DNA of 64,000 nt from positions 1-64,000 of the forward strand of contig NZ_JAVIFW010000033.1 of assembly GCF_031157275.1 (NCBI RefSeq). Reading direction: 5' to 3'. Origin of the DNA: Streptomyces sp. LHD-70 (GTDB lineage: Bacteria > Actinomycetota > Actinomycetes > Streptomycetales > Streptomycetaceae). The position numbers and the translations under genes are program-made. Positions 34,892-55,909 of the stretch are shown piece after piece; the stretch's first letter is position 1, and each line of letters opens with the position of its first letter. The notes below the pieces were generated by a model. That model searched no databases and was not told the origin of the DNA. It was given only the letters and a program-made list of their open reading frames with translations.

Positions 34892-34999
34892 GGCCTCGAC
34901 TCTGGGACGCTCCGTAGCGCGGTTGTAGCCCCGAGTTAGTGAGGAGGTCATAGCCAACCGATATGACTCCGGACCGGATCCGGCCCATACCCTGGAGCC

Positions 35000-35908
35000 A
35001 TGAGCCAGTTGCCTGATCTGGAGTCCCTGCGGCTGCTCGTCCTGGTCGGAGATGCGGGAAGCCTGAGCAGTGCGGCAGCGCAGCTCGGACTGGCGCAACC
35101 GTCGGCGAGCAAGCGGCTGTCCATGCTGGAGCGCAAGCTGGGCCTGGTCCTGGTGGACCGGACGCGGCGGGGGTCGCAACTCACCGACGCGGGCCGGGCG
35201 GTGGCCGGCTGGGCCCAGCGGGTCCAGCAGGAGATGGAGGGGCTGCTGACCGGCGCGGAGGCGCTCCGGACGAAGCGGGACGCCGAGCTGCGGGTGGCAG
35301 CCAGCATGACCGTGGCCGAGTGCCTGGTCCCGGGCTGGATCGGCGAACTGCGCCGGACAAGGCCGGAGCTGTACATCGGCCTCCAGGTGACCAACAGCGA
35401 GCACGTCCCCGAGCTGCTGCGCAGCGGGGCGGCGGACCTCGGGTTCGTCGAGTCACCGCTGGCACCGACAGGGCTGACCGCCTGTCAGGTCGCCTGCGAC
35501 CGGCTGCTCGTGGTGGTCCCGCCGGGGCACCCCTGGACGCGGCGCCGCCGCCCGCTGGGCATCGCCGAGCTCGCCGCCGCACCGCTGGTGCTGCGCGAAC
35601 GCGGATCGGGCACCAGGGAAACGCTGGACCAGGCGCTGCGCAAGGCCGGTGTGGGCGAGCCGCTGCCGCTCCTCGAGCTGGGCTCGGCGACCGCGGTACG
35701 CAACGCCGTGATCGCCGGCACCGGCCCGGCGGTGATCAGCGAACTCGCCGTACGCGCCGACCTCGCCGACGGCCGGCTGCTGCCGGTGGAGGTCGAGGGC
35801 ATCGAATTGCGCCGCGTCCTGCGCGCGGTCTGGGCCACGGGGCGCACCCTCGTGGGGCCCGCCGCGGAACTCCTCGCCGTGACGAGACGCCGCGGCAAGA
35901 AAGGGTGA
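35000..35908 (+). CDS. LysR-family regulator (YeiE/CysB-like context)
   Basis: 302 residues. The LysR helix-turn-helix is at 5-65 (LESLRLLVLVGDAGSLSSAA, AQPSASKRLSMLERKLGLVLVDR), with a substrate-binding-like C-terminal domain (AECLVPGWIGELRRTRPELY, then DLGFVESPLAP). It is divergent from the YeiH-type exporter across 108 bases, so it probably activates that gene. The ligand could be sulfite or a sulfur metabolite by analogy with YeiE; that is inference. Confidence 0.87.
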   Translation: MSQLPDLESLRLLVLVGDAGSLSSAAAQLGLAQPSASKRLSMLERKLGLVLVDRTRRGSQLTDAGRAVAGWAQRVQQEMEGLLTGAEALRTKRDAELRVAASMTVAECLVPGWIGELRRTRPELYIGLQVTNSEHVPELLRSGAADLGFVESPLAPTGLTACQVACDRLLVVVPPGHPWTRRRRPLGIAELAAAPLVLRERGSGTRETLDQALRKAGVGEPLPLLELGSATAVRNAVIAGTGPAVISELAVRADLADGRLLPVEVEGIELRRVLRAVWATGRTLVGPAAELLAVTRRRGKKG

Positions 35909-36063: not shown

Positions 36064-36765
36064 TCAGCGTTCCCGGAGCAGGCCGGGGAGCTGTGCCACG
36101 GAGTCGAGGACGTGGTGCGCGCCCGCCGTTCGCAGGTCGTCCTTGTCGTGGGCTCCGGTCAGCACACCGACGACGAGACCCGCGCCCGCGCGCAGGCCCG
36201 CCTCCATGTCGTAGGGGGTGTCTCCGACCACGGCGGTCTGCCGCACCGACGGGGCCTCGGTGCGCAGCAGTGCGGTCAGGACCATGTCCGGGTACGGGCG
36301 GCCGCGCCCGGCGTCGGCCGGGGAGAGGACCGCGTCGGCCAGGTCCTGCCAGCCGAGGGCGGAGAGCAGACCGTCCCGGGTGCGGGGGGAGAAGCCGGTG
36401 TTCAGTACGACGGCGACGCCCGCCGAGCGGAGTTCCTCAACGGCCCCTCGGGCGCCGGGAATCGGCGCGCAGCGGCCACCGGTGACCAGCTCGGCGTACG
36501 CCTGCTCGAAGGCCAGGTTGGCCTCCTCGGCGGCCCGGTCATCGCCGAACAGGTGGCGGAACACCGCGATCTTGGACTCGCCCATGGTGGCGCGGACGTG
36601 CTCCGTCATGCGGGCCCAACGCTCCGAGCGCTCGGCCACCCCCGCCCGGCGCAGGGCGTGGGCGAAGGCCTCCTCGACGGCCCCGGCGTCGGTGACGGTG
36701 GTACCGGCGAGGTCGAGGACGGCGAGGCGGATGTCGTCCGGGGCAGGCGTACGGGTCAGCGGCAT
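36064..36765 (-). CDS. Phosphonatase-like HAD hydrolase
   Basis: 233 residues. HAD motif I is LAVLDLAGTTVTDAG (nucleophile Asp, with the AGTT of phosphonoacetaldehyde hydrolases). A helical cap domain follows, then motif II NTGFSP and motif III/IV VVGDTPYDMEAGLRAG. The phosphonatase-like subfamily (TIGR03351 type) lacks proof of C-P cleavage. Its start overlaps the end of pta by 10 bases, so the two are translationally coupled. Working beside Xsc and Pta it may deal with a phosphonate analogue of the sulfonate, or with phosphate turnover. Confidence 0.85.
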   Translation of the reverse strand: MPLTRTPAPDDIRLAVLDLAGTTVTDAGAVEEAFAHALRRAGVAERSERWARMTEHVRATMGESKIAVFRHLFGDDRAAEEANLAFEQAYAELVTGGRCAPIPGARGAVEELRSAGVAVVLNTGFSPRTRDGLLSALGWQDLADAVLSPADAGRGRPYPDMVLTALLRTEAPSVRQTAVVGDTPYDMEAGLRAGAGLVVGVLTGAHDKDDLRTAGAHHVLDSVAQLPGLLRER

Positions 36766-38012
36766 GGGGTGGACTCCTCCTGATGCGACGAGACGGGTGC
36801 GCTGGGGTCAACCGGAGTTGCTGGACAGGTCGGATGGGTCGAAGCGGCCGAAGGGGGCGAAGGGAGGGACGCGGCCGAAGGGGCAGAAGGGGCAGAAGCG
36901 CCAGAAGCGGCCGAAGCGGCCGAGGGGGCCGGGTCGGCCGCAGGAGCCGCCCGTTCCACCGCCTGCAACCCGCCCACCAGCGCGATCGCCGCGATGTCCG
37001 AGCCCGAGCAGCCCCGGGACAGGTCGTGCAGCGGCGCCGCCAGGCCCTGCAGCAGGGGGCCGATGGCCGCGGCGCCACCGGCCCACTGGGCGATCTTGTA
37101 GCCGATGTTGCCGGCCTCCAGGCTCGGGAAGACGAAGGTGTTGGCGCTGCCCGCGACCGGTGAGGCGGGTGCCTTGGACCGGCCGATGGCGGGGACCGCC
37201 GCCGCGTCGTACTGCAGATCGCCGTCGACGGCCAGGTCGGGCGCGGCGGCACGGACCAGTCGTACGGCCTCGCGTACCCGCTCGACGCGTGGATGCGAGG
37301 CGCTGCCGCGGGTGCTGAACGACAGGAAGGCGACCCGCGGGTCCTCCCCCGCCAGCGCGCGGTAGGTGGCGCCGGTGGCCTGGGCGATGTCGGCGAGTTG
37401 TGCCGGGTCCGGGTCGACGACCACGGCGCAGTCCCCGTAGGCGAGGGTGCGGCCGTCCGGACGGACCATCAGAAAGCTGCTGGAGAGGGTGCGGATGCCG
37501 GACGCCAGGCCCACGACGTACAGCCCGGCCCGCAGCACGTCCGCGGTGGGGCGGGTGCTGCCCGCGACGCAGGCCTGCACGTCGCCGAGGCGCAGCGCCG
37601 TGGCGGCGAGGTACAGCGGGTCGGCGGCCAGTTCGCGGCGTTCGCCGGCCGAGAGTCGGCGGCGGGCGTCCAGGGCGGCGCCGAGGGTGTCCGCATAGCG
37701 GGGGTCGGCTGCCATCCGGGCGGGGTCGAGGATGTCGAACACGTCGGGGTCGTCCGGTAGTTGCAGCCCGATGTCGGCGGCGAGCGCCTGCACGCGGGCG
37801 GGGTCGCCGACCAGGACCGGGGTGACGGCGCCCTGGGCGGCGAGGCGGGCGGCGGCCCACAGGGCCCGCGAATCGGTCCCGTCGGCGAGCGCGACGCGCG
37901 GCCGGCGGTCGCACCGGCGCAGCCGTGCGGCCCACGATTCGACCAGGTGGTGTACGGCGGGCCCGGCCTGTCCTGCGGGCGGCCGCGCCGGGGCGAGCGG
38001 ATCAACGAGCAT
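36756..38012 (-). CDS. pta: Phosphate acetyltransferase
   Basis: About 418 residues of the PTA/PTB family: PRVALADGTDSRALWAAARL at the start, DVQACVAGSTRPTADVLRAGL, SSFLMVRPDG, FVFPSLEAGNIGYKIAQWAGG and GPLLQGLAAPLHDLSRGCS. It converts acetyl phosphate plus CoA to acetyl-CoA and phosphate, the step after Xsc. About 60 extra C-terminal residues are an Ala/Ser/Pro low-complexity tail encoded by a GGCCGAAGC-like repeat, unlike ordinary Pta. The ATG at 38012 has GGAG 13 bases upstream. It lies 264 bases downstream of xsc with a strong hairpin between. Confidence 0.88.
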   Translation of the reverse strand: MLVDPLAPARPPAGQAGPAVHHLVESWAARLRRCDRRPRVALADGTDSRALWAAARLAAQGAVTPVLVGDPARVQALAADIGLQLPDDPDVFDILDPARMAADPRYADTLGAALDARRRLSAGERRELAADPLYLAATALRLGDVQACVAGSTRPTADVLRAGLYVVGLASGIRTLSSSFLMVRPDGRTLAYGDCAVVVDPDPAQLADIAQATGATYRALAGEDPRVAFLSFSTRGSASHPRVERVREAVRLVRAAAPDLAVDGDLQYDAAAVPAIGRSKAPASPVAGSANTFVFPSLEAGNIGYKIAQWAGGAAAIGPLLQGLAAPLHDLSRGCSGSDIAAIALVGGLQAVERAAPAADPAPSAASAASGASAPSAPSAASLPSPPSAASTHPTCPATPVDPSAPVSSHQEESTPCR

Positions 38013-38088
38013 GGTTCGGGGCTCCGTTGGGAGGGAGGACGGCGGAGGGTTACGCGTTCTCGCGCTGGGACACCGCGCCGACCGGCGT

Positions 38089-38118
38089 GGCCGGACCAGG
38101 TCCGTGCCTGGTCCGGCC
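38089..38118 (-). terminator. Hairpin between xsc and pta (terminator or attenuator)
   Basis: Perfect 12-bp stem GGCCGGACCAGG with its complement and a 6-base loop, in the 264-base gap between xsc and pta. It could end the xsc transcript, or partially attenuate and so reduce pta expression relative to xsc. Confidence 0.6.
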
Positions 38119-38276
38119 GGTCCGGCGCCGCATGCCCGAGGAGGGAACGCACACGGCGCCGGGGCACGCCCGCGGTACGGGACCCGCCGCACAGAGCAGG
38201 GCAGCCGGGTGGGCGGGTTGTGCTGCGGGCGGCCGATCGGGATGCCGGGGCCGCCGGCTGTCGTGCCGTCGACCGG

Positions 38277-40085
38277 TCAGACGTAGTCCTGGTACTTCTC
38301 CAGGAACCGGACCGGCTTGGACAGCGCGTCGCGGCGGAACGGGTCGCCCAGCTCGCGGGTGCACATGATCTCGATGACCGTGGTCCGGCCCTCGTTCATC
38401 TGGGCGTCGACGGCCTGGCGCAGCGCCGGGCCGACGTCGTCCAGCTTCTCCACGACGATGCCGTCGGCGCCCATGGCCTGGGCGATCCCGGCGAAGCTCT
38501 CGCTCTCCAACTCGCCCGCAACGAAGCGGCGGTTGTAGAAGTCGACCTGGTTCTTCTTCTCCGCGCCCCACTGCCGGTTGTGGAAGACCACGGCGGTGAC
38601 GGGGATGTCGTGGCGTACGGCGGTCATGATCTCGCCCATGCTCATGCCCCAGGCCCCGTCACCCGCGTACGCGATGGCCGGGCGGTCCATGGCCGCGGCC
38701 TTCGCGCCGATGATGGTCGGCAGCGCGTAGCCGCAGTTGCCGAAGCTCATCGGCGCGAAGAAGGAGCGGGGCTCCTCGAAGCGCAGGTAGCTGTTGGCCA
38801 CGGAGTTGATGTTGCCGATGTCGGTGGAGACCATGACGCGCGGCGGCATGGCCTTCTCCAGCTCGCGCAGCACCTCGCGCGGGTGCAGCCAGTCGCCCTC
38901 CTCCCGCTCCTGCTCCGCGATCATGTCGAGGCTGAACGGGTCGGTCTCGTGGGTCCAGGCGGTGAGCTCCTGCTCCCACGCGTCCTTCTCCGCCTGGATC
39001 TTGGTGGCGCGCTCCGCGCGGGTGGTGTCGCAGGCGAGGGCCTTCTCGGTCAGCCGCTCGGTGAGGGCCGAGGCCGCGGCCTTGGCGTCGCCGCAGATGC
39101 CGACGGTGATCTTCTTGACCAGGCCGAGCATCTTGTGGTCGGCGTCTATCTGGATGATCTTCGCGTTCTTGGGCCAGTAGTCCATGCCGTGCTGCGGCAG
39201 CGTGCCGAACGGGCCGAGGCGAGAGCCCAGGGCGATGACCACGTCGGCCTGGGAGATCAGCTTCATCGCGGCCTTGGAGCCCTGGTAGCCGAGCGGTCCG
39301 CACCACTGCGGGTGGCTCGCCGGGAACGAGTCGTTGTGCAGATAGCTGTTGACCACGGGGGCGCCGAGGCGTTCGGCGAGCGCCTTGCACTCCTCCACGG
39401 CGTCGGCCATGACCACACCGCCGCCGGAGATGATCACCGGGAACTCGGCGGTGGCGAGCAGCTCGGCCGCGTCGTTCAGGCTCTGCTCGCCGCCGGGGCC
39501 GCGGTCGAGGCGGCTTGGCTGCGGGATCTCGGCCTCGATCTCGCCGTAGAAGTGGTCGCGCGGGATGTTGAGCTGCGTGGGGCCGATCTCGGACATGGCC
39601 CGGTCGAAGGCGCGGCCGGTGTACTCGGCCATCCGCTTCGGGTTGTTGACGTGCGCCTGGTACTTGGTGAACTCCTGGAACATCGGCAGCTGGTTGGCCT
39701 CCTGGAAGCCGCCCAGGCCGGTGCCCATGGTGCCCGCCTCCGGGGTCACGATGACCACCGGGCTGTGCGCCCAGTACGCGGCGGCGATCGCGGTGACGCA
39801 GTTGCTGATGCCGGGGCCGTTCTGGCCGATCACGACGCCGTGCCGGCCGCTCACGCGGGCGTAGCCGTCGGCCATGTGGCCGGCGCCCTGCTCGTGGACC
39901 ACCGGGATCAGGCGGATGCCGGCCGGGGCGAAGATGTCCATGGCGTCCATGAACGCCGAGCCCATGATGCCGAACATGTCGGTGACCCCATTGGCCACCA
40001 GAGTCTCGACGAAGGCCTCCGAGGGGGTCATCTTCTGGACGCCGGTGACGACGGCACGGCTGGCGTCCGTCTGCTTCTCACTCAT
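38277..40085 (-). CDS. xsc: Sulfoacetaldehyde acetyltransferase
   Basis: 602 residues, the usual Xsc length. The ThDP glutamate lies in PVVHEQGAGHMADGYARVSG, followed by the Xsc-typical NGPGISNCVTAIAAAYWAHSPVV and GTGLGGFQEANQLPMFQEFTKYQ. The ThDP-Mg motif is YAGDGAWGMSMGEI...HN. Xsc cleaves sulfoacetaldehyde with phosphate to give acetyl phosphate and sulfite in the cytoplasm, the key desulfonation step of taurine and isethionate breakdown. AAGGAG lies 7 bases before the ATG. It is divergent from an IclR gene, with palindromes between, and pta follows. Confidence 0.95.
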   Translation of the reverse strand: MSEKQTDASRAVVTGVQKMTPSEAFVETLVANGVTDMFGIMGSAFMDAMDIFAPAGIRLIPVVHEQGAGHMADGYARVSGRHGVVIGQNGPGISNCVTAIAAAYWAHSPVVIVTPEAGTMGTGLGGFQEANQLPMFQEFTKYQAHVNNPKRMAEYTGRAFDRAMSEIGPTQLNIPRDHFYGEIEAEIPQPSRLDRGPGGEQSLNDAAELLATAEFPVIISGGGVVMADAVEECKALAERLGAPVVNSYLHNDSFPASHPQWCGPLGYQGSKAAMKLISQADVVIALGSRLGPFGTLPQHGMDYWPKNAKIIQIDADHKMLGLVKKITVGICGDAKAAASALTERLTEKALACDTTRAERATKIQAEKDAWEQELTAWTHETDPFSLDMIAEQEREEGDWLHPREVLRELEKAMPPRVMVSTDIGNINSVANSYLRFEEPRSFFAPMSFGNCGYALPTIIGAKAAAMDRPAIAYAGDGAWGMSMGEIMTAVRHDIPVTAVVFHNRQWGAEKKNQVDFYNRRFVAGELESESFAGIAQAMGADGIVVEKLDDVGPALRQAVDAQMNEGRTTVIEIMCTRELGDPFRRDALSKPVRFLEKYQDYV

Positions 40086-40136
40086 GGTTCCACTCCTTCG
40101 ACAGGCTCATCAGATGAAGAAATCGGTACGTGGCGT

Positions 40137-40232
40137 TCCTGAAATCAGGATCTGGCTGGACTGTAGGGTGCTTCACCGGGGTCGTCAACGAAACATTCGG
40201 GAAAACGAGATCTGCTAGCCTAAATTCCGGAA
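40137..40232. promoter_or_regulatory. Divergent xsc / iclR control region with two palindromes
   Basis: Two short dyads lie between the divergent starts: TCCTGAAATCAGGA (40137-40150, perfect 14 bp with the AA centre unpaired), and TTCCGGAA (40225-40232), the latter followed by CCTGAATC. Both share a TTCC(T/G)GAA core. TAGCCT at 40216-40221 is a reasonable -10 for the IclR gene. The dyads are probable IclR binding sites, one for each direction. Confidence 0.55.
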
Positions 40233-40267
40233 CCTGAATCGTTGTGATCCCTACAAGTGGGGGAGTC

Positions 40268-41065
40268 GTGGACCTGACTCGCGAGCCCGATCCGACCGCG
40301 CTGAACGGCGATACGCCGACGATGCGCCTGTTCTCGCTGCTCGAACTGATCGCGGCCAAGGACCAGTTGGTCTCGCTGCAGGGCCTGGTCGAGGAGACCG
40401 GCATGCCCAAGCCGACGCTGCACCGCATGCTCCAGCAGCTGGAGGCCGCCGGGCTCCTCATCCGCCAGGCGGACGGCCGCCACTACGGCACCGGCGCGCG
40501 GCTGCGCCGCCTCGCCGAGAACCTGCTCCTGAACGCCACCCACCACGGCGCCCGGCACGCCGTACTGCGCAACCTCGTCGAGGAGTTGGGGGAGAGCTGC
40601 AACATCACCACGCTCTCGGGCAACGAGGTGGTCTACCTCGACCGCGTCGAGACCCCGGAGCCGCTGCGCTTCTACCTGCGGCCGGGCTCGCGCGTCCCCG
40701 TCCACTGCTCCGCCAGCGGCAAGATGATCCTGTCCCAGATGAGCCCGGCCCAGCGCCGCAAACTCCTGGCCCACGCCCCGCTCAAGCAGTACACGCCCAC
40801 GACGGTGACCGAACTCGACGCGCTGGAGGAGGAGTTCAAGCGCGTCCGGCGCAACGGCTACGCCCTCGACGACGAGGAGTTCCTGCCCGGCCTGGTCTGT
40901 GTGGCCGTACTCGTGCCCGGACGCGCCAACCTGTGCGTCGCCGTCCAGGCCCCCGTCATGCGACTCACCCCCGACAAGGCGCTGCAGCTCCTCCCCGCCC
41001 TGCAGCGCGCCGCCGAGGCGATCGCCCGCGTGGAGTCCGAGGGCACCCCCGCCGCCGACCTGTGA
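40268..41065 (+). CDS. IclR-family transcriptional regulator
   Basis: About 265 residues. The winged helix is at 15-75 (TMRLFSLLELIAAKDQLVSL, EETGMPKPTLHRMLQQLEAAGLL), and the IclR effector domain has CNITTLSGNEVVYLDRVETP, VPVHCSASGKMIL and GYALDDEEFLPGLVCVAVLV. It is divergent from xsc, so it probably represses or activates xsc-pta in response to sulfoacetaldehyde or a related acid. It is also co-directional with the CobS/CobT-like genes. The GTG at 40268 has GGGGGAG directly upstream. Its last codons and stop form the first copy of a 46-bp triplication. Confidence 0.88.
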   Translation: MDLTREPDPTALNGDTPTMRLFSLLELIAAKDQLVSLQGLVEETGMPKPTLHRMLQQLEAAGLLIRQADGRHYGTGARLRRLAENLLLNATHHGARHAVLRNLVEELGESCNITTLSGNEVVYLDRVETPEPLRFYLRPGSRVPVHCSASGKMILSQMSPAQRRKLLAHAPLKQYTPTTVTELDALEEEFKRVRRNGYALDDEEFLPGLVCVAVLVPGRANLCVAVQAPVMRLTPDKALQLLPALQRAAEAIARVESEGTPAADL

Positions 41066-41188
41066 CCACAGCCGTGACCGCACCTGTGGCCACCCCGCCG
41101 CCGACCTGTGACCACAGCCGTGACCGCACCTGTGGCCACCCCGCCGCCGACCTGTGACCACAGCCGTGACCGCACCTGTGGCCACCCC
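41051..41188. repeat. Three perfect tandem copies of a 46-bp unit at the iclR stop codon
   Basis: Units at 41051-41096, 41097-41142 and 41143-41188 are identical and abut with no spacer. The first copy contains the last four codons (Ala-Ala-Asp-Leu) and TGA of the IclR gene, so the array is an amplification of the gene end into the gap before the CobS-like gene. Each unit holds an inverted pair CCACAG...CTGTGG, so the transcript would carry three identical stem-loops. The array ends 30 bases before the next ATG. Confidence 0.95.
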
Positions 41189-41217
41189 GTGACCTCACCC
41201 GACCCGAAGGGCCGCAC

Positions 41218-42225
41218 ATGGCACACCCGGTGACCCACCCGACCACCCCCGACCGGCCGGACCTGCGGCTCGCCGTCAAGGACGTCTTCGGCATCGACTC
41301 GCCGCTGGTCGTCCCCGCCTTCAGTGAGCGCACCGAGCACGTCCCCGAGACCGACGACGCCTACCGGTTCAACCCCGATGTGACCCTGGCCCTGCTCGCC
41401 GGGTTCCTGCGCGACCGGCGGGTGCTGGTGCAGGGCCTGCACGGCACCGGCAAGTCCACCCACGTCGAGCAGATCGCCGCCCGGCTCAACTGGCCCTGCG
41501 TACGCGTCAACCTGGACGGTCACCTCGGGCGCCCCGACCTGATCGGCAAGGACGCGGTGGTCCTGCGGGACGGCCGTCAGGTGACCGAGTTCCAGGAGGG
41601 CATCGTGCCCTGGGCGCTGCAACGGCCCGTGGCGCTGATCCTGGACGAGTACGACGCAGGCCGCCCCGACGTCATGTTCGTCATCCAGCGGATCCTGGAG
41701 CGCGACGGCAAGTTGACGCTCATGGACCAGAACAAGGTCATCAGCCCCCACCCGTACTTCCGGCTCTTCGCCACCGCCAACACGGTCGGGCTCGGCAACC
41801 TCAACGGCCTCTACCACGGGGCGCAGCGCCTCAACCACGCACAGATCGACCGCTGGAACATCGTCACCTCGCTCGACTACCTGCCGCCGGAGGAGGAGGC
41901 GGCGATCGTGCGGGCGCGCGTCCCGTCGCTGGCCGATGAGCGGGGCGCGGAGCTGATCGCCTCGATGGTCGCGGTCGCCGCCCTGACCCGCACGGGCTTC
42001 CACGCCGGTGACGTGTCGACGCTGATGTCGCCCCGTACGGTCATCACCTGGGCGGAGAACCTGGAGATCTTCGGCGACCTCGAACTCGCGTTCCGCGTGT
42101 CCTTCCTCAACAGGTGCGACGAGGCCGAACGCGCCGTGGTCGCCGAGTACTTCCAGCGCTGCTTCGACCGTGAGCTCGACGTGTCGTACGCACTCACCGC
42201 CGAGTCGGCCCAGGGTGCGTCGTGA
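41218..42225 (+). CDS. CobS-like AAA+ ATPase
   Basis: 335 residues, closely resembling the CobS subunit of aerobic cobaltochelatase along its whole length. An N-terminal FGIDSPLVVPAFSERTEHVPE, YRFNPDVTLALLAGFLRDRR, Walker A GLHGTGKST (73-81), CVRVNLDGHLGRPDLIGKDA, Walker B ALILDEYD (139-146) and RLFATANTVGLGNLNGLYHG with sensor features. CobS/CobT drives metal insertion by CobN in cobalamin synthesis, but no cobN or cob gene is seen here. It is embedded between the taurine regulators instead, and its stop overlaps the CobT-like start. It is likely a MoxR/CobS-type remodelling ATPase acting on a local client. The ribosome site is weak. Confidence 0.85.
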   Translation: MAHPVTHPTTPDRPDLRLAVKDVFGIDSPLVVPAFSERTEHVPETDDAYRFNPDVTLALLAGFLRDRRVLVQGLHGTGKSTHVEQIAARLNWPCVRVNLDGHLGRPDLIGKDAVVLRDGRQVTEFQEGIVPWALQRPVALILDEYDAGRPDVMFVIQRILERDGKLTLMDQNKVISPHPYFRLFATANTVGLGNLNGLYHGAQRLNHAQIDRWNIVTSLDYLPPEEEAAIVRARVPSLADERGAELIASMVAVAALTRTGFHAGDVSTLMSPRTVITWAENLEIFGDLELAFRVSFLNRCDEAERAVVAEYFQRCFDRELDVSYALTAESAQGAS

Positions 42226-43967
42226 CCGACGCCCACACCGGCGCCCCCGCCGACCCCCGCCACCGGCAACGCGTCGAAGAGCTCTGCGCCGCAGCCGTAC
42301 GAGCCCTCAGCGCCGACCCCGACCTGCGGTTCCGCGGGCCCCGACTGCACCGCGGACGGCGCCCGCTGCCACTGCACGCCCCGCATCTGCACCCCACCCC
42401 CGAGGACGACTTCGGCTCGTTCCGGGGCGCGGCCGACGGCATGGCCCTGCGCCTTACACGGTCGGACGCCGGGCTGCATCGCCGGGAGCGCCCTGCCGAA
42501 CCGGTGGAACGGCTGGTCTTCGAGATGCTTGAGCAGTTCCGCGTCGAGGCGCTGGCCCCGGCGGCGATGCCCGGCATCGCCCGCAACCTGCGCCACCGCC
42601 ATGAGCAGTGGTCGCTCGCCTTCCACCGCTCGGGCCTCACCGAGACGGCACGCGGGCTGCTGCTCTACACGGTCGCGCAGGTATGCCGCTCCCGGATCAC
42701 CGCGCAACCCGTCGTCGCGGAGACCGAGGACCTGATCGAGGACACGCGCGCCGCCCTCGCCACTGCGATCGGGCACGACCTCGCCGGGCTGCGGCGGCAC
42801 CGGGACGACCAGGCCGCGTTCGCCGACCACGCCCTGTCCCTCGCCCGGACCGTGGCCGCGCTGCTCACGCCCGCCGAAGGCGAGGGCGGTGCCGGAGACG
42901 AGGACGCGCGCGCGGACGACGACCCCGACGACCGGTCCCACGACCGGTCCCGCTTCACCCTCCTGACGGACTTCGGCGACGACGAGCAGCTCGGCACCGC
43001 CTCCCGGGGCCGAAGCCGCGTACTGGAGGACGCCACTGACGGGTACCGCGTCTTCACCACCGCCTACGACCGGCAGCACCCCGCGGGCCGGCTGGTCCGG
43101 CCGGAGCTGCTCAGGGAGTACCGGGAAGGGCTCGACCGGCGCATCGCCGCGCAGGGCGTGAACGTCGGCCGGCTCGCCCGCGAGCTGACGGCGCTGCTCG
43201 CCGACCCCGTACGCGACGGCTGGGACAGCGGCCAGGAGGAGGGCCAGGTCGACGGGCGCCTCCTGGCCCGGCTGATCAGCTCGCCGAGCGAGCGCCGCCT
43301 CTTCCGGACCGAACGCATCGCACCCGTTCCCGACGCCCTCGTGACGTTCCTCATCGACTGCTCGGGCTCCATGAAGGAGCACGGCGAGCCGGTGGCCATG
43401 CTGGTCGATATCTTCGCCCGAGCGCTCGAACAGGCCGGCGCGAGCTGCGAGATCCTCGGCTACACCACCGGCGCCTGGAACGGCGGCCGGGCCCGCCGCG
43501 CCTGGCTGCGCGCCGGGCGCCCCGCACACCCCGGCCGCCTCAACGAGCAGTGCCACCTGGTGTTCAAGGACGCGGAAACACCGTGGCGCAGGGCCCGCCG
43601 GGACATCGCCGCGCTGCTCAAGGTCGACCTGTACCGCGAGGGCGTGGACGGCGAGGCGGTGGCCTGGGCCGCGCGGCGCGCACAGGCCCGGCCGGAGCGG
43701 CGGCGGCTCCTTGTCGTCCTGTCCGACGGCAGCCCCATGGACACCGCCACCCATCTGGTCAACGACCGCCACTACCTGGACCACCACCTCAAGGACGTGG
43801 TCGCGGGCCTTGAACGGTCCGGCGAGGTCGAGGTCCACGGCCTCGGCGTGGGGCTCGACCTGAGCCCCTACTACAGCAACTGCCACGCCCTCGACCCGTC
43901 CCGGACCACCGGCAGGGAGATGATCCGGGAGACGGTCACGCTGCTCGCGCGCCACCCCCGCCGGTAG
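42222..43967 (+). CDS. CobT-like protein with C-terminal von Willebrand A domain
   Basis: 581 residues. An N-terminal helical region (RGPRLHRGRRPLPLHAPHLH, then PVERLVFEMLEQFRVEALAP, the CobT-typical RxE segment), a short acidic middle (DEDARADDDPDDRSHDRSR), and a VWA domain starting at FLIDCSGSMKEHGEP (MIDAS DxSxS near 378-382) with LVVLSDGSPMDTAT and a C-terminal RTTGREMIRET. The acidic linker is shorter than in canonical CobT. The GTG overlaps the CobS-like stop (GTGA), so the two are coupled and should form one complex. See the findings for why a non-cobalamin role is suspected. Confidence 0.85.
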   Translation: MTDAHTGAPADPRHRQRVEELCAAAVRALSADPDLRFRGPRLHRGRRPLPLHAPHLHPTPEDDFGSFRGAADGMALRLTRSDAGLHRRERPAEPVERLVFEMLEQFRVEALAPAAMPGIARNLRHRHEQWSLAFHRSGLTETARGLLLYTVAQVCRSRITAQPVVAETEDLIEDTRAALATAIGHDLAGLRRHRDDQAAFADHALSLARTVAALLTPAEGEGGAGDEDARADDDPDDRSHDRSRFTLLTDFGDDEQLGTASRGRSRVLEDATDGYRVFTTAYDRQHPAGRLVRPELLREYREGLDRRIAAQGVNVGRLARELTALLADPVRDGWDSGQEEGQVDGRLLARLISSPSERRLFRTERIAPVPDALVTFLIDCSGSMKEHGEPVAMLVDIFARALEQAGASCEILGYTTGAWNGGRARRAWLRAGRPAHPGRLNEQCHLVFKDAETPWRRARRDIAALLKVDLYREGVDGEAVAWAARRAQARPERRRLLVVLSDGSPMDTATHLVNDRHYLDHHLKDVVAGLERSGEVEVHGLGVGLDLSPYYSNCHALDPSRTTGREMIRETVTLLARHPRR

Positions 43968-43980
43968 GACTCGTCTTCCC

Positions 43981-45441
43981 CTACGCGACCATCGCCCCGT
44001 CGACCAGTTCCCCCAGGATGCGGATGCCCGGGTCGATCACGGAGAGCGGGGGTGCCGCGAAGCCGATGCGGAAGTGGTTCAGGGGCGGGTTCTCCGACAG
44101 GAAGTAGATGTCGCCGCGCTCGATGAGCACCCCGCGCTCCTGCGCCAGGTCCACGAGTCGGCGGCAGTCCAGCTCCGGCGGCCCCGACATCCACAGGCTC
44201 ACCCCGCCCGGGGGCGGCGTCGTGTGCCACGGCAGATAGGTGTTGACCGCCCGGCTCGCCGCCTCCCACTTGTGCATCAGCTGGCCCCGGTACCTGCGCA
44301 CCGCCCGGTGGTACTCCCCGGACTCGATGAGCAGGGCCAGGGCGCGCTGGATGTGCCCGGACGGGTGCCGCACGGAGTAGCGGCGCAGGTCGCGCAGCTC
44401 CCGGACGAGCTCCCGCGAGCCCACGAGGTACCCGATGCGCAGCCCCGGTGCGAGGAACTTCGAGAACGTGCCCAGATAGACGACCTGTTCGGTCTCGTCC
44501 AAGCCCTTCAGCGCGGGCGTCGGGCTGCCCTGGTAGCGGAACTCGCTGTCGTAGTCGTCCTCCACGATCACCGTCCCGCTCTCCCGGACGAGGGACAGCA
44601 GCTCCCGTCGGCGACCGATGCTCAACGTCGCGTTCGTCGGATGCTGGTGACTGGGCGTCACATGCAGCAGGTCCACGCCCGCCAGGCTCTTCGCCGGCAT
44701 CAGCCCCGCCTCGTTCGCCCTGATCGGCAGCAGCGAGGCCCCCGCCCGTACGAAGATGTGCCGGGCGTCCAGATAGCCGGGATCCTCCACCGCCACCACG
44801 GATCCCCGGCCGAGCAGCGCCCGGCTCAGCAGGTCGAGCCCCTGCTGCGAGCCGACGGTGATCAGCACCTCCTCCGGCGACGCCTCCACCCCGCGGGCCG
44901 GCAGCAGGTGGTGGCAGACCATCTCGACCAGGAGCGGGTCGTCGGCCGCGATGCCGTCCTGCAGGCTGTACTGGACGTGCGGCTGGTACAGCGCCTTGTT
45001 GAGCGCCCGCGACCAGTCCCGCGCCGGGAACGCCCGCAGGTCGACCTGACCTGCGAGGAACGGGTACGGATAGCGGGCCCAGTCGGGCCGCTTCTCGATA
45101 TGCGGCAGGGTGTCCTCGGGGTGCCCGCGCAGCCGCGCGGCCCAGTCGAAGCGCTGGGTCGCGGGCCGTTCCTCGGCGGTGCAGTACGCGCGTATCTCGC
45201 GGTTGACGAAGATCCCCTGGCGGACCCGGCTCTCGACGAAACCCTCGGCCACCAGCTCCTGGTAGGCGGCGTTGACGGTGTTCCGGGAGAGGCCCAACTC
45301 GCGCGCCAGCTCGCGGGACGAGGGGAGCCGACGGCTGGAGTCGATCGTCCCCACGGCGATGCCGTGCTCGATGGCCTTGCGGATCTGCCGGTACAGCGGC
45401 TCGCTCGACTCCCGGTCGACCTCGATCAACGTGCGTGGCAT
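43981..45441 (-). CDS. MocR-family (GntR-HTH plus aminotransferase) regulator, TauR-like
   Basis: 486 residues. The GntR winged helix is at about 1-75 (PLYRQIRKAIEHGIAVGTID, LPSSRELARELGLSRNTVNA), then a class I aminotransferase-fold domain with the PLP lysine in YLGTFSKFLAPGLRIGYLVG. MocR proteins sense amino compounds through PLP, and TauR of alphaproteobacteria activates taurine genes this way. It is divergent from ald-tpa across a 311-base region with repeated GGACC(G/A)GTT boxes. The ATG at 45441 has AGGAGG 6 bases upstream. It ends 13 bases from the convergent CobT-like gene. Confidence 0.87.
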   Translation of the reverse strand: MPRTLIEVDRESSEPLYRQIRKAIEHGIAVGTIDSSRRLPSSRELARELGLSRNTVNAAYQELVAEGFVESRVRQGIFVNREIRAYCTAEERPATQRFDWAARLRGHPEDTLPHIEKRPDWARYPYPFLAGQVDLRAFPARDWSRALNKALYQPHVQYSLQDGIAADDPLLVEMVCHHLLPARGVEASPEEVLITVGSQQGLDLLSRALLGRGSVVAVEDPGYLDARHIFVRAGASLLPIRANEAGLMPAKSLAGVDLLHVTPSHQHPTNATLSIGRRRELLSLVRESGTVIVEDDYDSEFRYQGSPTPALKGLDETEQVVYLGTFSKFLAPGLRIGYLVGSRELVRELRDLRRYSVRHPSGHIQRALALLIESGEYHRAVRRYRGQLMHKWEAASRAVNTYLPWHTTPPPGGVSLWMSGPPELDCRRLVDLAQERGVLIERGDIYFLSENPPLNHFRIGFAAPPLSVIDPGIRILGELVDGAMVA

Positions 45442-45641
45442 GGCATGCCTCCTGAGCTCTCGCGGCCTGTGCCGGACGGGATGTGCGCGCGACCGGGTCC
45501 GCCCCCTGGGCGCACCACCGGTGACCTCACCGGCCGTACAGGACGGGTGACCCAGCCGGTCGCGCAACCGGCCGTAAAACCGGTCGTATACGGGACGTAA
45601 ACGGTCGCCTACGCGGCGATTTCCTCCTGGACCCATCAAAG

Positions 45642-45680
45642 GGACCGGTTCTGGTGCTTCTCGCCGGACCAGTTGGCTCT
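45642..45680. promoter_or_regulatory. Direct-repeat operator upstream of ald
   Basis: GGACCGGTTCTGGTG (45642-45656) and GGACCAGTTGGCTCT (45666-45680) start 24 bases apart, two helical turns plus a little, as expected for a dimeric MocR regulator. A near-identical box occurs before the downstream permease gene (48614). Confidence 0.6.
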
Positions 45681-45752
45681 GCAATCTAGCGCCATCGGCG
45701 GCTCCAGACGAGAGTCCGACGCCAACCCCCTCATCCCAGATGGGAGTTCTTC

Positions 45753-46868
45753 GTGAAGATCGGAATTCCGCGCGAGGTCAAGAACCACGAGTACCGCGTG
45801 GCCATCACCCCCTCCGGCGTCCACGAGCTGGTCCAGGCCGGCCACACGGTGTACATCGAGCAGGGCGCCGGGGCCGGTTCGGTCATCGCGGACGCGCACT
45901 ACCAGGCCGCCGGCGCCACCGTCCTGAGGACGGCCGACGAGGTCTGGGCCGAGGGCGACCTGCTGCTCAAGGTGAAGGAGCCCGTCGCGGAGGAGTACCA
46001 CCGCATGCGCCCCGGCCAAGTGCTCTTCACCTACCTGCACTTGGCGGCCTCCCGGGAGTGCACCCAGGCGATGCTCGCGGCCGGGGTCACCGGTGTCGCG
46101 TACGAGACGGTGCAGCCCGCCGACGGCACGCTGCCGCTGCTGTTCCCGATGTCCGAGGTCGCCGGCCGGCTCGCCCCGCAGGTGGGCGCGTACCACCTGA
46201 TGCGGGCGGCCGGCGGGCGCGGCGTCCTGATGGGCGGCGTCTCCGGCACGCACCCCGCGAAGACCGTCGTCATCGGCGCCGGGGTGTCGGGGATGAACGC
46301 GGTGGCCGTCGCGACCGGCATGTGGTCCGACGTGGTGCTGCTCGACAAGAACATCGACAAGCTGCGCGCCGCCGACCGCATGTACCAGGGGAGCATTGCG
46401 ACCGTCGCCTCCAACGGCTACGAGCTGGAGCAGGCCGTGCTCGAAGCCGACCTGGTCATCGGCGCGGTCCTCGTGCCCGGTGCGAAGGCGCCGAAGCTGA
46501 TCAGCAACGAACTCGTCTCCCGCATGAAGCCGGGCTCGGTGCTCGTCGACATCGCGGTCGACCAGGGCGGCTGCTTCGAGGACTCCCGGCCGACGACCCA
46601 CGCGGACCCGGTCTACGACGTCCACGACTCGGTCTTCTACTGCGTCGCGAACATGCCGGGCGCCGTGCCGAACACCTCCACGTACGCCCTCACCAACGTC
46701 ACCCTGCCGTACGTCCTCGCCATCGCGAACAACGGGCTTGCCGCGGCCGCGCGGGCGGACGCAGCGGTCAAGCGCGGCATCAACGTGGTGGGCGGCCAGG
46801 TCACCTACCGGCCTGTTGCGGAGGCGCACGACCTCAAGCACGTCGAGGTCGACGAGGCCCTCGTCTAG
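45753..46868 (+). CDS. ald: Alanine dehydrogenase
   Basis: 371 residues, standard length. The N-terminal MKIGIPREVKNHEYRVAITP, catalytic Lys in LLKVKEPVAEEY and His in TYLHLAASRE, NAD-binding fold HPAKTVVIGAGVSGMNAVAVA, and C-terminal VHDSVFYCVANMPGAVPNTS and TLPYVLAIANNG. It interconverts alanine and pyruvate with NAD and ammonia. With the following aminotransferase it would regenerate pyruvate, the amino acceptor, from alanine and release the taurine nitrogen as ammonium. The GTG has GGGAG 8 bases upstream. It is divergent from the MocR gene. Confidence 0.95.
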   Translation: MKIGIPREVKNHEYRVAITPSGVHELVQAGHTVYIEQGAGAGSVIADAHYQAAGATVLRTADEVWAEGDLLLKVKEPVAEEYHRMRPGQVLFTYLHLAASRECTQAMLAAGVTGVAYETVQPADGTLPLLFPMSEVAGRLAPQVGAYHLMRAAGGRGVLMGGVSGTHPAKTVVIGAGVSGMNAVAVATGMWSDVVLLDKNIDKLRAADRMYQGSIATVASNGYELEQAVLEADLVIGAVLVPGAKAPKLISNELVSRMKPGSVLVDIAVDQGGCFEDSRPTTHADPVYDVHDSVFYCVANMPGAVPNTSTYALTNVTLPYVLAIANNGLAAAARADAAVKRGINVVGGQVTYRPVAEAHDLKHVEVDEALV

Positions 46869-46964: not shown

Positions 46965-48341
46965 GTGACCACCGATTCCGGCCTCCGCGCCAAGGCGCGG
47001 CGCCACCTCGGTCCGCACTTCACCCGCAAGGACGTCTGGCAGGACGCCGAGCTGCCCGTCTTCGTGCGCAGCGAGGGCTGCCACCTGTACGACGACCGGG
47101 GCCGGCGGTTCCTCGACGGTCTGGCGGGCCTGTTCTGTGTGAACATCGGCCATGGCCGCAGCGACATCGTGGCCGCCGCGAGCAAGCAGATGGAGACCCT
47201 GCCGTACTCCACCAACTGGGGCGCCGCCCACCCGCCGTCCATCGAAGCGGCCAGTCTCATAGCCGAGCTGGCGCCCGGTGACCTCGGGGTGACGTTCTTC
47301 GTCAACTCCGGCTCGGAGGCCGTCGAGACGGCCATCAAGTTCGCCCGCCAGTACCACAAGAGCCAGGGCAACCCCGAGCGCACCAAGATCATCAGCCGGG
47401 AGATGGCCTACCACGGCGTCACCCTCGGCGCCCTGTCGGTGACCGGCCTCCCGAAGATCCGCGACCCGTTCCTCCCGCTGCTGCCGGGCATCCGCCACGT
47501 CCCCAACACCTTCGGCCACACCGGCGACTGCGGCCCCGCCGCCGAGCTCGACTGCGTACGCGCGATCGAGCAGGCCATCATCGAAGAAGGCCCCGAGACC
47601 GTCGCCGCGGTCTTCGCCGAGCCGGTGCAGAACGGCCGCGGCGCACTGGTCCCGCCGGACGGGTACTGGCGGGAGCTGCGCAAGATCTGCGACAAGTACG
47701 GCGTCCTGCTCGTCGCGGACGAGGTCATCTGCTCCTTCGGACGCCTCGGCCACTGGTTCGGCAGCGGCTACTTCGGCGTGGTGCCCGACATGGTCACCTT
47801 CGCCAAGGGCGCCACCTCGGGATACGCCCCGCTCGGCGGCATGATCGCCCGGGAGCAGCTGGTCCAGGAGCTCTTCGACTCCCCCAAGGGCGGCACGTTC
47901 ACCCACGGCGCGACCTGGGGCGGCCACCCGGTCTCCACCGCCGTCGCCGTCGCCAACATCAAGGCCATGCGCGACGAGGACGTCCTGGGCAACGTCTGCA
48001 CCCTCGGGCCCGAACTCCGCGCGGGGCTCGAGGAGATCAAGAACCGCCACCGCGTCGTCAAGGACGTCCGCGGCTTGGGCTTCTTCTACGCGATCGAGCT
48101 CATGGCCGACCGTGAGACGGACCGGGAACTCTCGGCGGAGCAGTCGGCCAAGATCCTGCGCGAGGTGCTCCCGGCGGCGTTCAAGAAGACCGGGGTCATC
48201 CTGCGCCCGGACGACCGCGGCGCCACGATGATCATGGTCTCGCCGCCGCTCGTCGCCGATCGCGCCGTGCTCGACGAACTGCTCGCCGGTATCGACGTGA
48301 TGGTCGGCGACGTGCAGCGCAGCGTCAGCGTCAGCGGCTGA
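46965..48341 (+). CDS. tpa: Class III aminotransferase, probable taurine-pyruvate aminotransferase
   Basis: 458 residues. Fold-type I class III aminotransferase: FLDGLAGLFCVNIGHGR, FFVNSGSEAVETAIKFARQY, EMAYHGVTLGALSVTGLPKIR, VFAEPVQNGRGALVPPDGYW, VLLVADEVICSFGRLGHWFG, and the PLP lysine in TFAKGATSGYAPLGG. The family covers omega-amino acid, beta-alanine, putrescine and taurine substrates, so sequence alone is not decisive. The taurine call rests on the partnership with ald, a TauR-like regulator and xsc. The GTG has GGGGAG 9 bases upstream. It follows ald after 96 bases, likely in one operon. Confidence 0.82.
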   Translation: MTTDSGLRAKARRHLGPHFTRKDVWQDAELPVFVRSEGCHLYDDRGRRFLDGLAGLFCVNIGHGRSDIVAAASKQMETLPYSTNWGAAHPPSIEAASLIAELAPGDLGVTFFVNSGSEAVETAIKFARQYHKSQGNPERTKIISREMAYHGVTLGALSVTGLPKIRDPFLPLLPGIRHVPNTFGHTGDCGPAAELDCVRAIEQAIIEEGPETVAAVFAEPVQNGRGALVPPDGYWRELRKICDKYGVLLVADEVICSFGRLGHWFGSGYFGVVPDMVTFAKGATSGYAPLGGMIAREQLVQELFDSPKGGTFTHGATWGGHPVSTAVAVANIKAMRDEDVLGNVCTLGPELRAGLEEIKNRHRVVKDVRGLGFFYAIELMADRETDRELSAEQSAKILREVLPAAFKKTGVILRPDDRGATMIMVSPPLVADRAVLDELLAGIDVMVGDVQRSVSVSG

Positions 48342-48768
48342 GGCGCAAGGGTGGGCGGGTCCGGTCCGAGAGGGGCCGGGCCCGTCGCAGGGCGCCGCCG
48401 TGCCCGATTCGCGCCGTTGGGCTGCCGGGGCGTACCGCCTTCGAGTCGTGCCATTCTCCCGGCGTGGGGCCGCCGTGGGGCCGCCGTGGGGCCGTCGGAA
48501 ATTCCGCCCCACCCTTTTTTCGTGCATTACCCAACTTTCTCGATGTCCGTCGCGCACCCCTCGCGCACGGGCGATCGGTATTTCCATGAAATCCCGAACT
48601 GGCACCCCTAGTAGGTCCAGTTCTGGCGCTTTCCCTGGAATACGGGGAGCGGCCATTATCCCGGCACTGCTTAATTCCGCGGCGGCCACCCGCGCATTCC
48701 GGCCGAGGTGGTGCGGCAGCGCCGCGATTCCTGAACGAAATGGGTTACCTGTGGGAGAGAACAAACTC
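48342..48768 (+). promoter_or_regulatory. Leader of the permease gene, with a MocR-type operator at 48595-48631
   Basis: GGTCCAGTTCTGGCGCTT (48614-48631) matches the ald box GGACCGGTTCTGGTGCTT (45642-45659) at 15 of 18 positions. A related half-site lies nearby in the opposite orientation (CGAACTGGCACC, 48595-48606). Elsewhere the region is less GC-rich than genes around it and includes a repeated GGGGCCGCCGT stretch (about 48470-48495). No gene is supported here. An independent, co-regulated promoter for the permease is likely. Confidence 0.55.
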
Positions 48769-50256
48769 GTGGACGGCGACAAGCCCGAGCAGGGCGAGAC
48801 AGCCGGACTGCGCAGCGAGCTCAAACAGAGGCATATGACGCTCATAGCCCTCGGCGGGGTGATCGGAGCCGGCCTCTTCGTCGGCAGCGGCGTCGTCATC
48901 CAGGAGACCGGTCCGGCAGCGATCATCTCGTTCGTCCTGGCCGGCGGCCTCGTCATCCTGGTGATGCGGATGCTCGGCGAGATGGCGGTCGCCCGCCCCT
49001 CCGCGGGCTCCTTCTACGAGTACGCGCGGCTCGCCCTCGGCCCCTGGGGCGGCTTCACCATCGGCTGGCTGTACTGGTACTTCTGGGTCAACGTGGTCGC
49101 GCTCGAAGCGGTGGCCGGCGCCACTCAGATCCATGCCTGGCTTCCGGGGGTGCCGTTGTGGGTGATCAGTCTCGGCCTGATGTTGTTGCTCACCGGGGTG
49201 AACATGTTCTCGGTGAAGTCGTTCGGTGAGTTCGAGTACTGGTTCTCGTCCATCAAGGTCGCCGCGATCAGCGTGTTCCTCATTCTGGGTCTGGTCTTCG
49301 TCGTCGGCCTGTGGCCCGGAGCGCACGCGGACGTGGGGAACCTGACGGCACATCAGGGATTCGCTCCGCACGGTATCGGCCCGGTGCTCACCGCGGTTAT
49401 CCCGGCGGTCGGCTTCTTCACCGGCGCGGAGATCGCGGCGCTGGCCGCGGCCGAGTCCAAGGAGCCGGGGCGGAACGTGGCCAGGGCCACCCGCTCGGTC
49501 GTCCTGCGCGTGCTGCTCTTCTACGTCGGCTCGATCTTCCTCGTCGTCGCCATCGTGCCGTGGAACGACGGCAGCATCACCGACGGGCCGTACATCTCCG
49601 CCCTCCAGCACATCGGGATCCCGTACGCCGGAACCCTGATGCGCATCCTCGTCCTCGTCGCCGTGCTGTCCTCCCTCAACGCCGGCCTCTATAGCGCCTC
49701 GCGCATCGTCTTCGCCCTCACCCGGCACCGCGACGCGCCGAGCGGGCTGACGAAGCTCAGCCGACGCGGTGTGCCGCAGCGCGCGATCCTGCTCGCCACC
49801 GTGCTCGGCTACGTCTCCGTGGTCTTCGCCTACGTGTCGCCCGAGACGGTGTTCTCCTTCATCGTCCACTCGTACGGAGCGGTGGCGCTGTTCGTCTACC
49901 TCCTGGTCGCGTTGTCCCAACTGCGCCTGCGCCGCCGCCTGGAGCGTGAGGACCCGGGGGCGCTGACCCTGAAGATGTGGGGCTATCCCTATCTGAGCTG
50001 GTTTACGGTCGCCGCCATGACCCTGGTGATCCTCACCATGGCGGTGCTGCCCTCGACCCGCCTCGACTTCGGCACCAGCCTCCTGACGCTCCTCACGGTG
50101 CTCGGCGCGTACGGCGTGATCCGCCTGCGTCGCCGAGCCGAGGACGGGCCCGCCCCGACACCGCCGTCCGACGGACCGCGGCCCGCCCCGCTACCGGGAC
50201 CGACCGGCCCCACCGCCGACTCCCAGCGGCCACGGGTCCCGGCCAAGGAGCAGTGA
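48769..50256 (+). CDS. Amino acid permease, APC/AAT family
   Basis: About 495 residues with 12 hydrophobic segments. Starts SELKQRHMTLIALGGVIGAGLFVGSG, the typical AAT/GABA-permease TM1, followed by VMRMLGEMAVARPSAGSFYEYARLALG, FEYWFSSIKVAAISVFLILG, FFTGAEIAALAAAESKEPGR and a hydrophilic C-terminal tail rich in Pro. The GTG at 48769 is preceded by GGGAGAG; an in-frame GTG at 48751 is an alternative. It lies downstream of tpa behind a shared operator motif, so it is the best candidate importer of taurine or a related amino compound in this island. No TauABC transporter is present in the window. Confidence 0.85.
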   Translation: MDGDKPEQGETAGLRSELKQRHMTLIALGGVIGAGLFVGSGVVIQETGPAAIISFVLAGGLVILVMRMLGEMAVARPSAGSFYEYARLALGPWGGFTIGWLYWYFWVNVVALEAVAGATQIHAWLPGVPLWVISLGLMLLLTGVNMFSVKSFGEFEYWFSSIKVAAISVFLILGLVFVVGLWPGAHADVGNLTAHQGFAPHGIGPVLTAVIPAVGFFTGAEIAALAAAESKEPGRNVARATRSVVLRVLLFYVGSIFLVVAIVPWNDGSITDGPYISALQHIGIPYAGTLMRILVLVAVLSSLNAGLYSASRIVFALTRHRDAPSGLTKLSRRGVPQRAILLATVLGYVSVVFAYVSPETVFSFIVHSYGAVALFVYLLVALSQLRLRRRLEREDPGALTLKMWGYPYLSWFTVAAMTLVILTMAVLPSTRLDFGTSLLTLLTVLGAYGVIRLRRRAEDGPAPTPPSDGPRPAPLPGPTGPTADSQRPRVPAKEQ

Positions 50257-55591: not shown

Positions 55592-55908
55592 TCCCCGGCG
55601 AGATCCGGACCGGATCCGGTGTACTGAAAATAAATGACACCCGCACTCAACGGCAGGTGACCGTCGTGAACGAGGGCGACCGCCCCATTCAGGTCGGTTC
55701 GCATCTTCATTTCCCCGACGCGAATCCAGCACTTTCCTTCGACCGCTCCCTGGCCGAAGGTTTCCGGCTCGATATTCCCTCCGGTACGTCTCTGCGTTTT
55801 GAACCCGGAGTCGGTGCCGAGGTCAGCCTCGTCGAGCTGGGCGGCCGTCGGGCGGTGCCCGGCATCGTCGTGCCCGGCACCCGGACCGCACGAACGGACA
55901 ACAGGTGA
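55588..55908 (+). CDS. ureB: Urease subunit beta
   Basis: 106 residues: [60 protein letters not shown] and [20 protein letters not shown], the typical UreB sequence. The GTG start overlaps the ureA stop by four bases (GTGA), and the stop is two bases before the ureC ATG, so the three structural subunits are tightly coupled. Confidence 0.96.
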
Positions 55909-55909
55909 C

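Follow-up and report, generated by a model that had tools for sequence, protein, structure and literature searches.

We analysed a 64,000-nucleotide window of Streptomyces sp. LHD-70, which lies on contig C33 of an 8.5 Mb genome in 63 contigs, and examined a pair of genes that resemble cobS and cobT, the motor subunits of cobaltochelatase, and are placed among taurine and sulfoacetaldehyde genes. We found that the pair belongs with class A sulfoacetaldehyde acetyltransferase (Xsc) by its co-occurrence, its place and a shared operator-like box, and that it does not belong with CobN.

Both open reading frames (ORFs) carry the Pfam domains of the two families, as the initial annotation had supposed, and overlap by 4 bases (Table 1). 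The CobS-like ORF matches CobS_N with an E-value of 4e-13 and AAA_5 with 2e-12, and the CobT-like ORF matches CobT_C with 1e-47 and CobT with 6e-29, all over the Pfam cut-offs. The GC content at third codon positions (GC3) was 0.95 for the first and 0.93 for the second, the codon-position signature of genuine high-GC genes. The pair sits between the xsc side and the side of ald and the aminotransferase, again as first described, with an IclR-family regulator 5' and, 3', a MocR/PdxR-type regulator followed by ald, the aminotransferase and a permease. From this context we infer that the class III aminotransferase is taurine:pyruvate aminotransferase (Tpa), with its substrate assigned on the same grounds.

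The genome encodes no full-length CobS besides this CobS-like protein, and the next-best match is an ATPase-like ORF of 453 aa (40% over 119 residues). Only part of the 64 kb was annotated, and the check for cobalamin genes in the window covered CobN and the ChlID-type chelatase. The earlier statement that the window holds no cobN is correct: the sole CobN match in the genome is located on contig C11. In the iclR-cobS gap, window positions 41047-41189 hold a perfect 46-base tandem repeat of 3.1 copies. We weighed it as a candidate operator and rejected it, since five related loci lack a 20-base stretch of the repeat unit.

Table 1. Features of the locus and its neighbours, with positions in the window
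Feature	Position	Strand	Evidence and remarks
YeiH-family protein	33737-35404	-	Pfam above cut-off; NCBIfam TIGR00698 under cut-off
Pta, phosphate acetyltransferase	36756-38192	-	Pfam PTA_PTB, E 6.5e-92; NF007233 over cut-off; real start probably internal to the ORF as listed
xsc, sulfoacetaldehyde acetyltransferase, class A	38277-40085	-	TIGR03457, 1084.8 bits (cut-off 676.4)
Palindromic box GGTACGTGGCGTTCC (GGWAC-N5-GTWCC), putative operator	40125-40139	.	Between xsc and iclR
IclR-family regulator	40244-41065	+	Pfam IclR_C, HTH_IclR; 5' of cobS, facing away from xsc
CobS-like MoxR-type AAA+ ATPase, 335 aa, start ATG	41218-42225	+	Pfam CobS_N and AAA_5
CobT-like VWA protein, 581 aa, start GTG	42222-43967	+	Pfam CobT and CobT_C
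MocR/PdxR-type regulator	43981-45684	-	NF052282, 377 bits (cut-off 320); listed start probably too long
Alanine dehydrogenase (ald)	45753-46868	+	Pfam AlaDh_PNT
Class III aminotransferase	46965-48341	+	Pfam Aminotran_3; NF005102 over cut-off
Amino-acid permease	48400-50256	+	Pfam AA_permease, E 1.3e-115

The pair accompanies class A xsc and not cobN

In the window's genus, CobS (full length) and Xsc were found in the identical 4 of 392 genomes, the source genome included (Fisher p 1e-9). In the family of G434, the genome that carries the L054 locus of Variovorax beijingensis (a family that we take to be Burkholderiaceae in GTDB), Xsc is present in 29 of 250 genomes, and CobS was found in 27 of these 29 and in 0 of the 221 others (Fisher p 3e-34); the counted genomes are related to one another, so these p-values overstate independence. 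G434 was picked for having the pair, and without it CobS is present in 26 of 28 Xsc genomes. All 27 CobS genes of this family are on the xsc contig, within ~3 kb of xsc. In a phylum sample of 398 genomes, we identified Xsc in 26, comprising 7 of class A (82-85% identical to the window Xsc) and 19 of class B (46-48%). CobS is present in all 26, with the linked type found with class A only and an unlinked CobS (60-66% identity to the window's CobS-like protein) in the class B genomes. The pair lies beside xsc in 5 of the 7 class A genomes. The pair is kept by 4/4 class A xsc genomes in the genus, 27/29 in the family of G434 and 7/7 in the phylum sample.

Gene order was examined in 80 loci from Betaproteobacteria, Gammaproteobacteria and Actinobacteria, which are the best 80 of 297 relatives given by a CobT-alignment search. 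The xsc gene was found in 67 of the 80, and in 44 of the 45 with at least 9 kb on each side. The distance between the pair and xsc has a median of 1048 bases and a maximum of 4945, and the arrangement in the 67 loci is divergent upstream (54), downstream (10) or other (3). Among the 13 loci without xsc, 12 sit at contig ends, with at most ~2.3 kb left beside cobT on one side or both (in L111 the other side has 5.7 kb free), and the thirteenth is L118. By comparison, none of the 18 canonical CobS loci, each 11 kb long, contains Xsc. One locus, L128 (Janthinobacterium LM6), carries two class A xsc genes, nearly identical to each other, that flank the pair.

The other neighbours were counted in 44 long loci. 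Xsc is present in 43 of them, compared with 17 for Pta, 15 for a permease, 12 for a SauS-like protein, 11 each for a SauT-like protein and a FAD oxidoreductase, 9 each for Ald and a choline-dehydrogenase-like protein, and 8 for Tpa. No tested pathway gene other than Xsc was above 17 of 44. Judged by context, the feeder route differs among loci, with taurine transamination, taurine dehydrogenase, sulfoacetate and perhaps isethionate represented, whereas Xsc and the pair persist. The IclR gene was found in 41 of the 45 full loci; in 33 it lies no more than 3 kb from cobT. We also clustered the neighbours in search of a constant third gene, and found that only CobS, CobT, Xsc and, less strictly, IclR are near constant.

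The palindromic box between xsc and iclR is the sole mismatch-free match in the window of the longer pattern tried. In 102 sequences (1.84 Mb), we identified 73 copies of GGWAC-N5-GTWCC, 45 of them located at most 300 bases 5' of xsc, 7 located 5' of cobS and 21 elsewhere, with the gene starts for these distances extrapolated from alignments. Where the xsc start is readable (85 loci), the box is upstream in 45 and there is none in 40. The seven separate cobS boxes lie 23-56 bases upstream of the gene in loci with the pair apart from xsc (L042, L046, L114, L115, L119, L121 and L124). Six of these seven loci also have an xsc box, and the xsc start in L114 is unreadable. The IclR protein would be the natural candidate to bind the box.

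The distribution of CobN does not follow the pair. Among 50 isolate genomes with a linked-type pair, CobN is present in 35 and there is none in 15, most of which are drafts; one, G479, is a complete chromosome. In the family of G434, 27 genomes have the pair, of which 12 have CobN and 15 lack it, versus CobN in 12 of 28 genomes without the pair or Xsc (Fisher p 1.0; the latter are the first 28 by handle out of the 221). CobN is also present in 19/19 class B Xsc genomes. In the source genome, a fused ChlID-type partner (TIGR02442, above cut-off) is encoded inside a cob operon, and its neighbours there appear cobO- and cobB-like, names given by reading the sequence and not by a family search. 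Scored against both genes, the pair tracks xsc and not CobN. The alternative raised at the outset, that the pair serves a CobN encoded elsewhere, fails because CobN is missing from many genomes with the pair, and is present in many without it, and because a cob operon of the source genome encodes a ChlID-type partner. The initial annotation had also named an outcome that would count against recruitment, namely a pair that is the only CobST in its genome and is carried by every cobN genome; the first part holds for full-length CobS, and the second falls with the 12 CobN genomes lacking the pair.

Separation from canonical CobS and CobT

The CobS-like protein scores 503.6 bits with TIGR01650, under the NCBIfam cut-off of 558.55, and the CobT-like protein scores 311.8 bits with TIGR01651, under the cut-off of 759.05. 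The Walker A motif of the CobS-like protein is GLHGTGKST (residues 73-81). The CobT-like protein has a helical N-terminal domain, a short disordered linker (~218-260) and a VWA domain with a complete metal-ion-dependent adhesion site (MIDAS) of the form DxSxS-T-D, whose residues D379, S381, S383, T416 and D502 are invariant in a 31-sequence alignment. The Walker A, MIDAS and MSPRT motifs are all retained.

We found the MIDAS motif DCSGSM in 97/97 linked CobT, a count that is partly biased because the search patterns behind the 80 CobT-search loci included FLIDCSGS and the seeds came solely from xsc-linked loci, and DNSGSM in 15/15 canonical CobT (three of the 18 canonical loci yielded no usable CobT). 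DCSGSM is also present in the 18 of the 97 that were reached through CobS searches instead (L042-L049, L166, L167, L238-L240 and L243-L247). The number of acidic residues in the CobT linker, at most per 80 aa, has a median of 19 (13-24) in the 97 linked proteins versus 37 (35-42) in the 15 canonical ones. This observation agrees with the short acidic linker noted at first, with about half the canonical acidic density. The median CobT length is 576 aa for linked versus 632 aa for canonical proteins, and nine CobS positions are fixed differently between the two groups.

In a CobS tree, 61 linked and 18 canonical sequences are parted by a single branch with a value of 99 in the Shimodaira-Hasegawa-like approximate likelihood ratio test (SH-aLRT). 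This was a quick build with SH-aLRT only, for which 28 of 107 rows were removed at random to thin the linked group, and every canonical CobS in it comes from a class B Xsc genome. L238 and L239 are placed beside the canonical side. As the tree has no root, the linked sequences may or may not form a clade.

The AlphaFold2 model of the CobT-like protein (mean predicted local distance difference test score 82) shows the helical part, the disordered linker and the VWA fold described above. Among solved structures, it best matches the VWA domain of NorD in NorQD (Z 18.5; root-mean-square deviation 5.5, 259 aligned) and Rea1-MIDAS (Z 17.3). Long strands at 327-338 and 361-370 of the model might correspond to the extra hairpin ('finger') described for NorD, with which the comparison was made at the level of the overall fold. 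Solved CobT chains were matched by sequence and are absent among the fold-library matches listed. In L044 (10966-12689), the CobT of Cupriavidus sp. EM10 is split over two overlapping reading frames, a possible frameshift.

A proposed client and alternative explanations

On balance, we lean with moderate confidence towards reading the pair as a MoxR-AAA+/VWA machine dedicated to the sulfoacetaldehyde branch, akin to CobST yet separate from it, which remodels Xsc as NorQD and CbbQO do their clients. The initial annotation had suggested recruitment of a CobST-type pair to sulfonate metabolism as a chaperone or insertion machine. The co-occurrence, synteny and shared box strongly support the recruitment, with which the tree is consistent, and the chaperone or insertion mechanism stands as a suggestion. 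Xsc is the probable client because, among the clients offered, it alone is constant; these data give no support to a YeiH exporter or a sulfite oxidase in that role.

Like its family, Xsc uses thiamine diphosphate (ThDP) as its cofactor. In the proposed mechanism, the CobS-like ATPase would form a ring, the CobT-like VWA protein would bind Xsc via its MIDAS, and ATP hydrolysis would remodel Xsc, thereby releasing dead or inhibitory ligands and allowing ThDP and Mg2+ to be loaded. The need for remodelling may come from sulfite, which Xsc would release beside ThDP and which destroys thiamine. Passages in published work describe the MIDAS as required for action on the client in CbbQO and NorQD (PMC4660213, PMC9976466), sulfite as a product of Xsc (PMC5320631) and thiamine as degraded by metabisulfite (PMC11206890). 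In Actinobacteria, TauR regulons also contain thiG, a thiazole gene (PMC5320631), which would fit a high thiamine demand. We also considered, as possible but unlikely, that the pair is a repair activase: sulfite would cleave the Xsc-bound ThDP, and the machine would open Xsc, eject the fragments and reload the cofactor. If true, this would be the sulfonate-metabolism counterpart of Rubisco activase.

The pair was compared with known systems. It shares with CobS and CobT of the aerobic CobNST the same two families end to end and the cobS-cobT gene order, and its CobS-like protein is 61-64% identical to CobS of named, mostly alphaproteobacterial replicons, close to its identity with the unlinked CobS of the 19 class B genomes, which also have CobN. 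It differs in being xsc-linked, CobN-independent and across one tree branch, with a short-linker CobT. NorQ/NorD, described in parts of the literature as inserting iron into nitric oxide reductase during its maturation, is likewise a MoxR AAA+ protein plus a VWA protein with MIDAS, and supplies the best structural match. However, it belongs to another subfamily, with ~17% identity over VWA, and the client proposed here is a soluble ThDP enzyme. CbbQ/CbbO is, in the relevant passage of PMC4660213, a MoxR AAA+ plus VWA pair that maintains the activity of an enzyme (Rubisco); CbbQ is a weak sequence match (E 4e-8), and the enzyme and, if our reading is right, the inhibition are different. MoxR/VWA client-remodelling pairs share the Walker-motif AAA+ ATPase beside a VWA protein. 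Such pairs are also expected beside the gene of their client, a place that xsc would fill in 44 of the 45 full loci if Xsc is the client. The ChlID-type CobN partner is also an AAA+ plus VWA motor, but one that is fused into a single protein and encoded separately, within the cob operon of the source genome.

Besides the relatedness of the counted genomes, several observations weigh against a dedicated Xsc machine. In G1049 and G976, the pair is on the same contig as xsc at distances of ~22 and ~29 kb. No CobS or CobT was found in any of 19 class B xsc stretches (18 of the 19 genomes; 20 kb each, one 5 kb), so class B Xsc occurs without a linked pair, yet its genomes carry canonical CobS. At E <= 1e-40, no CobS was detected in G497 or G601, both of which carry class A Xsc, and since their Xsc fall inside the CobST-linked class, the pair can be dispensable. 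L118, a full locus, holds the pair and lacks xsc within 10 kb. As for the box, its pattern was first noticed by eye in these loci, the seven cobS boxes are mostly from related Burkholderiaceae, and with two mismatches allowed it shows no clear enrichment in the window (25 matches versus 17.8 expected, with as many in 8 of 100 shuffles). Finally, co-transfer of adjacent genes accounts for part of the co-occurrence.

Two side observations were made at these loci. In L118 (3639-8098), the pair is near aldehyde dehydrogenase, AMP-ligase and TauE genes, the first two presumably resembling the sulfoacetate genes sauS and sauT. In L163 (G497) and L164 (G601), a choline-dehydrogenase-like gene was found near class A xsc. 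A docking site on Xsc, sought among the residues changed in G497 and G601, was dropped, as two sequences are too few.

Another explanation, which we rate as rather unlikely, is that the pair matures a different protein of the sulfoacetaldehyde regulon, such as a transporter, Pta or a metalloenzyme that handles sulfite. Metal insertion by a MoxR/VWA pair is described for NorQD, and exporters or dehydrogenases are present in many loci; however, the counts in the 44 long loci put Xsc far above Pta, the permease, the SauS-like protein, the FAD oxidoreductase and Tpa. Such a client might also be encoded away from these loci.

We consider it quite improbable that the pair, with Lin0512 proteins where these are present, is a chelatase-like or small-molecule machine without CobN, serving either to detoxify sulfite or sulfoacetaldehyde or to produce a cofactor. 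In its favor, two adjacent Lin0512-family genes, always paired, were found just 3' of cobT in 11 of the 80 loci (L081, L092, L095, L098, L101, L102, L116, L120, L122, L123 and L127), and a CobW-type GTPase was found in 5 of the 44 long loci. However, both are absent from most loci, the window included, and the search for a constant catalytic subunit gave none. The Lin0512-family genes were rejected as a missing subunit, being present in just those 11 loci. PF09585 was confirmed for three of the proteins, and the only solved relative found, 3c8l, is labelled FtsZ-like of unknown function. The CobW-type GTPase was seen near the pair in L045 (12619-13587), L112, L115, L119, L121 and L124, and COG523 is listed in TauR regulons of Comamonadaceae in a section of PMC5320631.

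That the pair is a hitchhiker, which travels with xsc and has no sulfonate role, is very improbable. The two are adjacent and were probably transferred together between phyla, but their order and distance vary over the 67 loci, G1049 and G976 retain both in spite of the separation, and the box also precedes cobS in the seven loci with the pair away from xsc. Least credible of all is a cobaltochelatase motor for a CobN encoded elsewhere, which the clear homology of the pair to CobS and CobT and the CobN of the source genome would favor, but which the CobN counts in both the isolate and the family genomes and the ChlID-type partner in the cob operon make extremely improbable.

An annotation as cobaltochelatase subunit can be taken as evidence of B12 synthesis, and the xsc-linked group should not be. 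Taurine and C2-sulfonate degradation would gain an apparently unrecognised part, kept by nearly every sampled class A xsc genome. If Xsc is the client, the pair would be a MoxR/VWA remodeller acting on a ThDP enzyme, and we know of no description of such a remodeller. In the literature searched, mostly without subscription papers, we found among the papers listed no link of Xsc with CobS, CobT, cobaltochelatase or MoxR; PMC4334477 (Ruegeria genome) mentions sulfoacetaldehyde acetyltransferase once and CobS or chelatase once, and PMC3087415 (methanogens) mentions sulfoacetaldehyde as well as CobT and cobaltochelatase. A 2016 TauR-regulon study covers taurine genes in Actinobacteria, Comamonadaceae and Burkholderia, and its section on them names no CobS or CobT (PMC5320631). 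Within this literature, the protein families are known, and their association with xsc and the proposed client are apparently new.

Away from the pair, the window also holds two full-length urease alpha subunits, at 55799-57613 (+) and 62148-63860 (-), which are ~4.5 kb apart with ureG between them.

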